From Symbiodinium natans (taxonomy: Eukaryota > Sar > Dinophyceae > Suessiales > Symbiodiniaceae): DNA of 64,000 bases. The translations under genes and the position numbers were made by a program. Under the pieces are notes generated by a model that worked only from the letters and a program-made list of their open reading frames with translations, did no database searches and was not told where the DNA came from. Of this stretch, positions 37,001 through 46,200 are shown piece by piece (position 1 is the first letter of the stretch; every line of letters begins with the position of its first letter). Location: contig CAJNDS010000102.1 of NCBI GenBank assembly GCA_905221605.1, positions 582,501-646,500 on the forward strand. The letters are read 5' to 3'.

Positions 37001-37416
37001 AAACCTAAACCCCATAAGACGAACCCCCTCGGCCGCAACACCTTCCCCTCCCAGCCTGCCAAGGCAGCCACGGGGATGAAGTTCCTCCGGTTTAGGGTTT
37101 AGGGTTTAGGGTTTAGGGTTTAGGGTTTAGGGTTTAGGGTTTAGGGTTTAGGGCTTAGGGGCTCAGAGGTGTTGGGGACTGACTTCTGAGCTTCGTAAGG
37201 GAAGCTGAGGGCCTAGGGTTTAGGGTTTAGGGTTTAGGGTTTAGGGTTTAGGGATGGTTTAGGGCTTAGGGCTTAGGGCTTGGGGATAGGGTTTGGGCTT
37301 AGGGTGTAGGGTAGAGGGTTTTTGGCGAGAGCTCTTCGGGTTTCTGACATCCGCCAAGCTTCAGCAGACGGTAGGCGCCCATCACCGAGGCCATCACAAC
37401 CAGTGCGGTCACTGTC
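31090..37416 (-). CDS. SulP-family anion transporter, C-terminal half (last transmembrane segments and STAS domain)
   Basis: Same gene as 43281-49514. Minus-strand exons: 37360-37416, 37056-37084, 36668-36701, 36158-36209, 35777-35809, 35167-35208, 34826-34868, 34355-34371, 33870-33908, 33400-33432, 32858-32948, 32586-32641, 32275-32330, 31873-31946, 31564-31576 and 31090-31117 (stop at 31090-31092). Peptides follow bacterial-type SulP order: NFIPVAALAG, IMIVVVLHTFKW, LRVPRIEALVVLAV, TNIAVAVGVSICAISFAW, then the STAS entry KVYVDGPLFFTSANRL, KLLDPSRDPE, TTLMDFTSVEILHKIAL and LNLSSQKIIEKA. STAS domains regulate SulP carriers for sulfate, bicarbonate or similar anions; the substrate cannot be told here. 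Exons of 17 and (tentatively) 13 nt occur. The tail exons 31564-31576 and 31090-31117 are less certain. The preceding exon, 43281-43334, lies across the whole HSP70 gene and joins in phase. Confidence 0.9.
31437..31506 (-). repeat. Short tandem repeat (CCCAAAAAG)n
   Basis: About seven units of CCCAAAAAG with one-base variants, in an intron near the 3' end of the SulP gene. Confidence 0.85.
31725..31798. mobile_element. MITE-like family C, copy 1
   Basis: CCCCCAAAGTATGTAAAA at the left and TTTTACATACTTTGGGGGG at the right form an almost perfect 18-base inverted repeat around a core of about 35 bases. A second copy is at 44179-44249. Both lie in SulP introns. Confidence 0.7.
32411..32514. mobile_element. 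MITE-like family A, copy 3
   Basis: TTGGAATGTTCGCCC at the left and GGGGGAACATCCCAA at the right are inverted repeats. Internal TAGTAGGGATG and TTAAGGACTG are shared with the other family A copies. It lies in a SulP intron. Confidence 0.6.
33012..33350. repeat. Microsatellite cluster in a SulP intron
   Basis: (CA)n at about 33021-33048, (CTCA)n to 33063, then TATG/TACG-type repeats, (TA)n at about 33295-33312 and GATT/GATA units at 33327-33355. A cluster of several simple repeats, lying between the STAS exons 33400-33432 and 32858-32948. Confidence 0.85.
34196..34281. mobile_element. MITE-like family D, copy 2
   Basis: GCGTTTACGATACCC at the left and GGTACCCATAAAATCGTAAAC at the right are inverted repeats. 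The core holds GGATCCCTTACAATAAGGACC. Located in a SulP intron. Confidence 0.55.
34401..34509. mobile_element. MITE-like family B, copy 2
   Basis: The outermost ACTTACTGTTGGT and ACCAGCAGTAAGT are inverted repeats. Inside, TAGTAGGGAATGGGGGAG faces CTCTCTCATTCCCTGCT. It has the same architecture as 5624-5756 but different outer ends. Confidence 0.6.
36511..36624 (+). repeat. Homogeneous variant array (TTGAGGG)n
   Basis: About sixteen perfect TTGAGGG heptamers with no TTTAGGG among them, followed at once by a poly-G tract. It lies in the SulP intron between exons 36668-36701 and 36158-36209. Its homogeneity points to recent amplification of one variant unit. Confidence 0.95.
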
Positions 37417-37640
37417 CTTGCACGCAAGCCGCGCGTACAAGTAGCTTGCAAGACCAGTAGTGGCTGTTCACACGGAGCGGAAGTTGACGAACCTGAACAA
37501 GCCCTTTTTTCCCGGCATGCACTGTACAGTGCCGGCTTGCATTCCTTGGTCTCTGGAGGGGTGCCTTGCAGGCGACTTGCTCCGCAGGCTAGCGAGAATG
37601 CACTGTGCAGAAGCGCCTGTAGCACACGACGGCCTAGGGC

Positions 37641-43280: not shown

Positions 43281-46200
43281 GGCGCCATCCGCCCCCGGCC
43301 ACCGTTGAGGGAGTTGATGGTCGAGAGACCGATCCTGGAGGGAAGTGGTGGCCGTAAGCCTCGTGGGGTTAGAGATTTCAGGCTCCCTATGACATTCCCT
43401 TACAAAAGGGTTGGAGTGGAGTTCGAGTAAGGTACCGAATTCCCTAGTGGGTTAGAAGGTACGGAATTCCCCGATTCTTGAAGAGGGTTTAGGGTGTATA
43501 GGGTTTGGGGTATGGGGTTTAGGGTTTCGGGCTTAGGGTTTAGGGTTGCTTCACGGGCCCAAGGGCATTTCTAGCGCCTAGTGCCCAAGCCAAGGGTCAT
43601 GGCGTTGCCACCCATGCCGCCCAGGAAGCCTCGCGAAGGGCTCGTGGGCGAGGAGAAGAAAGAAGGGGTTTGGGGTGTTTCGGTTCTTTGGGGGGGTTTT
43701 GGGGGGTCTTGGGGTTGTAGGTTCTGGGGTCTAGGCAGCACCCCCCCCCCCCCCCTGCCACCCCTAAACCCTCGAAACTCAAGAGAGGGTCAAGGCCGTT
43801 CACTGCCTAGGTGCCCGAGACCATGTTTCCCAGGCCCATGGCGAAGAGGGTGCGGTCCCCCTCGCTGGGGGTCTTGGTGAATGACTCGACCACCTCAAGA
43901 AAGTTGGGGTTTGGGGTTTAGGGTTTAGGGTTTAGGGTTTAGGGTTTAGGGTTTAGGGTTTAGGGTTTAGGGTTTAGGGTTTAGGGTTTAGGGTTTAGGG
44001 TGAAGGGTTTAGGGTGTTAGGGCTCTTGGGGTTGGGAAGAACTCCATTTTTGCAGCACCCAGAAGCCCTCAACCCTTGAATCCGCCTCGGACGTCATCAG
44101 AGACTCGATGGAGCCCACCACGCACAGCAAGATGCCTCCGGAGACATTCCCTGCTGTTTAGGGTTTAGGGTTTACCTGGACCCCCAAAGTATGAAAAAAA
44201 ACAGCCCAAAACCCTTAAAAGGGCCATTATTTTACATATTTTGGGGGTTGAGCTAGGGTTTAAGGTTTAGGGTTTAGGGTGGGTTCAAACCCCAGCGGAC
44301 ACCCATGTCCTTGAGGTTCGGGCCCGCCTTGGACCAGGATGCTCTGGATGGAGGACCAGGAGTCAATGATGCCGTGCAGGTTGTAACCTTGGCAGCTGAA
44401 GATTAAACAAGCTCAGGCCCGCGCCTCCCTGCAGCCCAAACCGCAACCCTTCAGCCTCCACCCCTCAGCCCTCTTCTTCCCAGGCCAGGGGCTTTTGGGG
44501 GGGGGGGGGGGTTGCCCTTTGCAGCCTTCGAAGCCCTCTTCCTTGCGGGGTTTGGCTAACCCTGCAACCCTGAAACCCTGAAACCAGCCTGTGGAGGGGT
44601 GCTGCACGAAGAAGGGGATGGGGAAGGCCGTCTCGGAGGTAAACTCCTTGGTGCCCAAGCGCAAAGAAAAAAAAACCAAGGGTTTAGGGTTTAGGGTTTA
44701 GGGTTTCAGGTTGAGGGTTTAGGGAGCCAGGCGCCCGAAACTCTGCCCTTGCCCTGAGCCCTCCCTGCCCCAGATGACCTAACCACCTCCCTTCGAGGGA
44801 TCTAGGGCTTAAGGGCATTGGAAACAAATGAACGTATGATTCGCTCGCTCAAGTGCCCACGCTTGCATAAATGATGCCTTGCTTTCTCTTCTTCGGTTGC
44901 TTGCCTTTACCTCGTTCTCTTCATTTCATGCGTCTTTCTCTTCTTCGTATTATTCACCTTTAATATTTTGTAAACGATTGAATTCAGAAAATGGAAATCC
45001 TGTTCTTCCTCATAGTCAAGGTGTGTTCGCTTAAAGGGCATTATTAAAGTTATTCTTATGCTGTTTCTCATTTTCATTCGTCTTACTTTGCGTTAGCTTT
45101 CTCATCGTTCACTTATAATAAGGACAGAAAAGTCCTTGAATGATCCAGATGATTTTTTCTGATTCCGGGGCCTGGGGGTCTTTGCACTAACCCTTAACCC
45201 TTAAACCCTAAACCCTAAACCCTACACCCTAAACCCCCAAGCACCCTAAGCCCTACCTGCCATCCGCGCCGGGCATCGCTCACGTCGCCGATGGTGTCGG
45301 TCCTCCAGCCGCATGGGCGCACGATGGCAAACCTGGAGGGTGGGGTGGGAGGGGGGGCTAAACCCCAAACCTCAAACCCTAAACCCCAAAACCCCAAACC
45401 CTAAACCCAAACCCCCAACCCTAAACCCCCAAACCCAACCCTAAACCCCTAAACCCCCAAAACCCCAAACCTCGTTGCCAGGAACTCTCGGCTTCAGGGA
45501 AGGCTTTGGGGGAGGCTTAGGCCTGGAAAGGCCCCCGGAGTCAAAAGCCTTCAGCGTAAGTTTCGATCTTTTAAGGGAGGGGCTTTTTGGGCTGCGAGGG
45601 TAGTTTAGGCTTCTGAGGGCTTCGGGCCGAGGTTCGGGGGGCTTGAGGGTTCCAGTCTTCCGGGCCCTCAGACCCCCGGCAACCCGAGCCAAGCCGCTCG
45701 ATGAGGATGGCGACAAGGATCGCCATGAGAGACGAGGGGATGACCTTGAACAGCTGTAGCGGCACCTGGGGCCGAGAGGAGGGCGTTGCGCCCCCTTGGG
45801 CCCGGAACCCACACATGAGGGTGCCCCCCCCCCCCACCCCCTAAATCCAAAAAAACGCACATGAGGGTCCCCAAAAAGGCAGGTGTAGAGAGCATTCTCC
45901 TCCGGCCGGAAAGTCAGCACATCCGGGGTTCACGTTCGGTGGCTTTGGGCTCTGAGGGCGTCGAGGCTTGGGTCATCTACGGCTTCAATCAGCCCTCAAC
46001 CAGGGCCGAGTCGATGTTTTCAGATCTCCTTCATGGAGACCTTGATGGAGAAGAACTTCTCAGGCAAAGAATATACTTGGAGAAAAATGGCGTTACTTCA
46101 TGGCGGCTACTCAGAATTTACAAGCATGCTACGAAATATCTGATCTGCTGTAGCCTATAGCATATGACCCCCCCCCCTGTTCAAACAGGCCCACCCAGAA

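Follow-up and report, generated by a model that had tools for sequence, protein, structure and literature searches.

Nested genes and GA splice donors have already been published for dinoflagellates. According to the main text on Polarella glacialis, nested genes make up 4,898 (8.4%) and 3,359 (6.5%) of the predicted genes in two isolates, the authors state that these genes have full-length transcript support, and the gene finders were adapted to GA donors (PMC7245778). The locus described here is a clean example of this arrangement and not a new phenomenon: a complete HSP70 gene that appears to occupy one intron of a SulP-type anion transporter gene in Symbiodinium natans. It lies in a 64-kb window (the whole stretch of DNA analysed, C102:582501-646500 on contig CAJNDS010000102.1) of a genome assembly of 759 Mb in 2,543 contigs. 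The minus strand was read directly from 47000 to 36000, and open reading frames and tandem repeats were listed for the window. Shared with Polarella, as its main text describes it, are protein-coding genes in introns of others, GA donors, and the dinoflagellate spliced leader; unlike the present pair, the example given there consists of light-harvesting genes in an alanine-tRNA ligase gene, and "heat shock" occurs 0 times in that main text (PMC7245778).

Two other systems offer partial parallels. For Amphidinium carterae hsp70, a passage of Table 1 in the published account gives tandem-repeat and trans-splice-site accessions but states no number of introns, and an AAAAG/C motif is said there to mark the poly(A) site (PMC2488372). 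Sister copies of the present HSP70 gene, T1-T4, likewise stand in tandem, whereas the copy considered here is single and inside another gene's intron, unlike the arrays of that account (PMC2488372). Intronic genes of Drosophila, about 6% of genes there, are also whole protein-coding genes in introns, although the example 2mit lies in timeless2 on the opposite strand, unlike the same-strand pair here (PMC3786989). The main text of a 2024 review of dinoflagellate genomics uses "nested" 0 times (PMC11453091), and among titles and abstract openings on dinoflagellate nesting, nested HSP70 and tandem dinoflagellate HSP70, which cover that literature in part, no paper on a SulP/HSP70 pair was found.

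The 13-exon HSP70 gene (41151-37641) lies entirely within a single SulP intron (43280-37417), both on the minus strand. The whole inner gene is thus contained in one outer intron, and the flanking exons come from one outer gene: they encode adjacent residues in compatible phase, and paralogs are continuous at this point. Judged from sequence, the HSP70 gene is very probably a complete copy, made at the DNA level from the lineage of a nearby tandem array, in one intron of a working SulP gene. The central features are as follows.

48986-32586, minus strand: SulP-type anion transporter gene, 24 modelled exons, from spliced alignment to a paralog on contig C2061
43281-43334, minus strand: SulP exon (M)IGLSTINSLNGGRGRMAP, the last before the HSP70-bearing intron; acceptor CCAG|GATC, donor GCGCC|GAGC (GA)
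37417-43280, minus strand: SulP intron with HSP70, 5,864 bp, GA...AG|G, from the paralog-referenced spliced alignment
37641-41151, minus strand: complete HSP70 gene with EEVD C-terminus, 13 exons, from spliced alignment and PF00012
37360-37416, minus strand: SulP exon TVTALVVMASVMGAYRLL(K), the first after the HSP70-bearing intron; acceptor CAAG|GACA, donor at 37363 (GA) or 37360 (GC)
37056-37084, minus strand: SulP exon NFIPVAALAG, from profile- and paralog-based spliced alignments

Most of this layout had been proposed in a preliminary description, and its core holds. The two SulP exons that it placed at 43281-43334, with a GA donor at phase 2, and at 37360-37416, starting G|ACA, are both present and join in phase 2; the HSP70 gene that it called complete at 37641-41151 reads from its ATG to EEVD and a stop without interruption; and the SulP exons that it found in correct order on both sides correspond to the same segments in the same order in the C2061 paralog. 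Its statement that an intron of about 5.9 kb houses a housekeeping chaperone gene is borne out for a same-strand HSP70 in the intron, but "housekeeping" is not specific to the nested copy, which has at least six other close copies.

The HSP70 exons were modelled with a custom spliced aligner.

Exons 1-7, minus strand: 41151-41125, 40949-40803, 40733-40710, 40608-40477, 40355-40202, 40052-40013, 39883-39814
Exons 8-13, minus strand: 39657-39592, 39426-39350, 39265-38728, 38528-38286, 38186-38136, 38012-37641 (including the stop)

From the ATG at 41151 the product runs for 646 residues with no internal stop to a C-terminal PTVEEVD and a stop codon at 37643-37641. It matches PF00012 over positions 1-599 of 599 (E 1.6e-261). 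This full-length match is found together with a C-terminal EEVD, a mark of cytosolic forms, as expected of a cytosolic HSP70 (DnaK family). The best match of the first 199 residues is PDB 3kvg, presumably from Cryptosporidium, another alveolate. All 12 introns have AG|G acceptors (12/12), and their donors are GA in six, GC in five, and GT in one.

A genome search for HSP70, in which 73 of 226 candidates were scored so that copy numbers are lower bounds, gives a family of seven or more close copies: the nested gene, a tandem group of four (T1-T4) 46 kb from it, and two on contig C1864. T1-T4 lie on the same strand as each other at C102:560100-574554, with spacers of about 300 bp by coordinates. 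They share their 12 introns one to one with the nested gene, one boundary differing by a codon, and this correspondence argues that the gene was copied at the DNA level. A processed, retrocopy origin was rejected on the same ground, all 12 introns having been kept. Compared with the copies on C102, the C1864 pair (L012 and L013; C1864:201591-209295) carries one additional intron. When the tree is rooted at its midpoint, the nested copy joins T1-T4, which form a clade with support 99/99, and these five are split from the C1864 pair with support 100/100. The ratio of nonsynonymous to synonymous divergence (dN/dS) is 0.041-0.055 against T1-T4, with dS of 0.197-0.215, and 0.062-0.065 against the C1864 pair, values that are pairwise and do not isolate the branch of the nested copy. 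By its sequence, then, the nested HSP70 reads as a constrained, DNA-level duplicate. The idea that SulP and HSP70 moved as a pair was also discarded, as SulP scores beside the other HSP70 arrays are no better than controls. In C1864:198001-213000 and C102:556001-582500, of which 3,299 and 5,000 bases respectively read N, they are 59.4-78.8 over both strands, at control level, and in C102:646501-656500 they are 52.6 and 61.0.

The nested gene could instead owe its position to misassembly, if a copy from the tandem array had been put into the SulP gene by mistake. On one side HSP70 borders on tandem repeats and a dispersed repeat, which are of a kind that can mislead assemblers. However, the nested gene is distinct from the six compared copies (dS at least 0.197), its 3' flank passes without a gap into the SulP acceptor, and the window contains no N, which together leave an assembly artefact scarcely credible.

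Several lines of evidence define the host gene. With the C2061 paralog (C2061:369590-356459) as reference, the SulP model scores 1060 versus 174-192 in four controls, and 277 of 451 aligned residues are identical (61%). A profile built from five bacterial SulP proteins, run on the minus strand from 51500 to 31000, gives a spliced score of 253.7 versus 57.0-82.2 in six controls (the other strand, four other combinations of stretch and strand, and reversed sequence). In this bacterial-profile model a single intron spans HSP70, and masking HSP70 has no effect; in the paralog-referenced model the same masking costs 0 points. The profile-based model, with one junction edited by hand, matches PF00916 over the membrane domain at E 1.2e-28 in two stretches, the best covering 189-379 of 380. 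In a genome-wide PF00916 search, all 15 listed matches fell on other contigs; the window, with its short SulP exons, gave none. The C-terminal exons align to the same region in bacterial SulPs and in the paralog, and Pfam at E 0.01 listed no STAS match there. One further exon probably lies upstream of those modelled.

49130-49095, minus strand: probable further upstream SulP exon, from spliced alignments to bacterial SulP

In the modelled SulP introns, acceptors are AG|G in 22 of 23 and AG|A in one, and donors comprise 14 GC, 5 GT, and 4 GA. Such donors, paired with AG|G acceptors, fit dinoflagellate practice, and both junctions of the HSP70-bearing intron obey this local grammar. Opposite exon 37360-37416 the C2061 paralog reads VTALGIMACVMGAYPLL; its sequence at this point is VTALGIMACVM-GAYPLL-NFIPVAALAG. 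Because the paralog lacks the extra Lys, the donor at 37363 is favoured over that at 37360. The region 37085-43280 contains 206 stop-free AG|G...G[TCA] candidate exons of the right phase; on the SulP profile the three best scores all go to variants of the 37416 exon, which rank first, second, and fourth by hydropathy. Masking in the paralog-referenced model costs 35 points for exon 37360-37416 and 50 for 43281-43334.

That the two SulP parts belong to one protein is supported by other copies in the genome, since the segments of the C2061 paralog are ordered alike and the SulP on contig C2503, a second and more distant type, reads from the GRGR to the PALAG segment without interruption. This different type occurs as two tandem copies at C2503:58661-61803, and its identity to the window SulP is about 30% across the segment that they share. 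HSP70 might still be flanked by two separate genes or gene halves related to SulP, or the halves might be joined by trans-splicing, with no ordinary host intron between them. Trans-splicing does occur in dinoflagellates, and at 5,864 bp the HSP70-bearing intron is nearly five times the length of the next longest, the other 22 modelled introns measuring 51-1,233 bp. Against this, the 5' part breaks off and the 3' part resumes at neighbouring residues of a single protein, with phases that are compatible, and paralogs and bacterial SulPs are continuous at the junction; such a divided host is very improbable.

Coding constraint on both SulP halves further supports one host gene. The modelled exons contain no stops, differences from the C2061 paralog amount to 0.521 at codon position 3 and 0.275 at positions 1 and 2, and the third-position excess is seen on both sides of HSP70. 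These properties bear on whether the HSP70 insertion killed SulP, leaving a pseudogene or a gene expressed in its 5' half alone. Downstream of HSP70 the resemblance to the paralog is lower than upstream (amino acid identity 0.567 versus 0.645), and an intron that is 5.9 kb long and contains both repeats and a poly(A)-type motif could prevent expression of the host. Neither the absence of stops nor the third-position excess on both sides of HSP70 is what a pseudogene would lead one to expect. Moreover, private matches to bacterial SulPs downstream of HSP70 are more numerous in the window copy than in the paralog for four of five proteins and tie for Sphingobium (9 and 9). Upstream, the window copy again leads for four of five, with fewer for the Cellulosimicrobium protein (12 versus 15). 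As its private matches exceed those of the paralog in most comparisons, the window SulP is not the decaying copy, and a dead host is improbable.

Some results weigh against an intact SulP host with HSP70 in a single intron. Using bacterial sequences alone, support for exon 37360-37416 is weak, since masking it in the bacterial-profile model costs just 0.6 points. A variant of that model with a weaker intron penalty placed two small exons inside HSP70 and skipped the exon at 37416; it was replaced. Resolution is poor for the first and last SulP exons and for several short stretches (within 47609-45621 and 34868-34773). The window and C2061 models were, moreover, refined against each other, which is mildly circular, so the precise boundaries of weak exons do not count as independent. 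The divergence between the two SulP copies (NG86: dN 0.340, dS 1.246) yields a rough dN/dS because dS is saturated, and the pairwise nature of the HSP70 ratios limits them as noted above. Finally, the paralog has an intron of 202 bp after GRLGPC, 4 nt in the alignment from the 5,864-bp window intron after GRMAP. It may represent an "empty" form of the HSP70-bearing intron, yet it counts as a counterpart and not provably as the same intron, because the two SulP copies do not place their introns identically, being 4 nt apart here and differing at other points too.

The two paralogs (48986-32586 and C2061:369590-356459, 61% identity) differ in intron position in several places, which suggests intron gain or sliding. 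An earlier model built on a single bacterial reference over-called small exons inside HSP70 and was replaced.

The flanks of the nested HSP70 carry candidate processing signals of its own.

41152-41212, minus strand: HSP70 5' element, pyrimidine tract and AG (41160-41159), putative spliced-leader trans-splice acceptor, common to the seven modelled copies
37501-37640, minus strand: HSP70 3' flank with an AAAAAAG motif within 37516-37501, putative 3' untranslated region and poly(A) site, conserved with other copies

Similarity among the 3' flanks of the copies extends to the AAAAG motif, which has degenerated in T1 but is kept by the other six of the seven. The genome carries the dinoflagellate spliced leader: 205 exact matches were found (104 forward and 101 reverse), versus 0 for a reversed control pattern. 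Within the 64-kb window there are 0 matches with up to 3 mismatches allowed.

These signals suggest how the locus may be expressed. Within a transcribed SulP intron, the nested HSP70 is most likely a self-contained RNA-processing unit that comprises an acceptor, a coding region, and a poly(A) motif. Its mRNA would receive the spliced leader by trans-splicing at the putative acceptor AG 41160-41159, as for other dinoflagellate tandem genes, would lose its 12 introns by cis-splicing, and would be cleaved and polyadenylated at the AAAAG motif near 37505, the probable poly(A) site. The SulP mRNA would be formed by removing intron 43280-37417 whole through a GA-AG|G cis-splice. We infer two mRNAs, HSP70 and SulP, which may or may not come from one primary transcript: HSP70 may have a promoter of its own or be excised from the SulP precursor. 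Drosophila, by contrast, is not known to have spliced-leader trans-splicing. A stronger proposal is that the two mRNAs are alternative fates of one primary transcript: trans-splicing and intronic polyadenylation would yield HSP70 mRNA and terminate the host, GA-AG cis-splicing would yield SulP mRNA and discard HSP70, and the chaperone-to-transporter ratio would depend on heat or on the state of splicing. Such a switch is unlikely.

The combination of nesting and trans-splicing poses the question of how a 5.9-kb intron is spliced out before the inner gene is trans-spliced and polyadenylated. With an intact-looking host and guest, six sister HSP70 copies without SulP signal in their flanks (part of which read N), and a paralog with a 202-bp intron, the choice would be directly measurable here. 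In the Polarella study, the main text gives an EvidenceModeler setting by which nesting was allowed solely in introns longer than 10 kb (PMC7245778). Gene prediction limited in this way could miss cases such as HSP70 in a 5,864-bp SulP intron.

Upstream of HSP70, the same SulP intron contains repeats of two kinds.

41556-42620 (end approximate), no strand assigned: dispersed repeat of about 1 kb with one end joined to a TTTAGGG array, from a genome search
42797-43261, no strand assigned: GGGCCCTTGGCC-type tandem repeats and a TTTAGGG array (43153-43261), from the tandem-repeat listing

The satellite block of the preliminary description is accordingly right in its tandem repeats, but the block consists mostly of the dispersed repeat (41556 to about 42620). 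When the genome was searched with 41640-43150, 77 matching pieces came from 40 scored places among 1,175 candidates, namely the window and at least 39 other long copies of 82-98% identity. At 10 inspected loci, there are two or more TTTAGGG-type repeats at the end on the HSP70 side; in the window copy and in L029-L042, TTTAGGG-type repeats stand directly before TGTGTCAGGGGAGGGCGCGCG. The repeat resembles a mobile element associated with repeats of the telomere type. It is separate from the HSP70 duplicate, and carriage of HSP70 by it is disfavoured: repeat homology breaks off at 41525-41569, leaving about 370-420 bp before the HSP70 ATG, as checked in 12 of the 39 other copies.

TTTAGGG/CCCTAAA-type arrays recur through the window in both orientations, with many among the 150 tandem-repeat rows listed of 194, and may be tails or landing sites of such mobile elements. 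A Pfam scan of 10 of the 47 window open reading frames of at least 120 aa found nothing beyond a weak RVT_2 reverse-transcriptase match at 61855-62247 (25.1 bits, under the cut-off of 31.6). This match falls in a lower-GC block on the minus strand (60262-63866) with two long open reading frames of 518 and 568 aa, for which Pfam gave no match at E 0.01; the block is probably a retroelement remnant.

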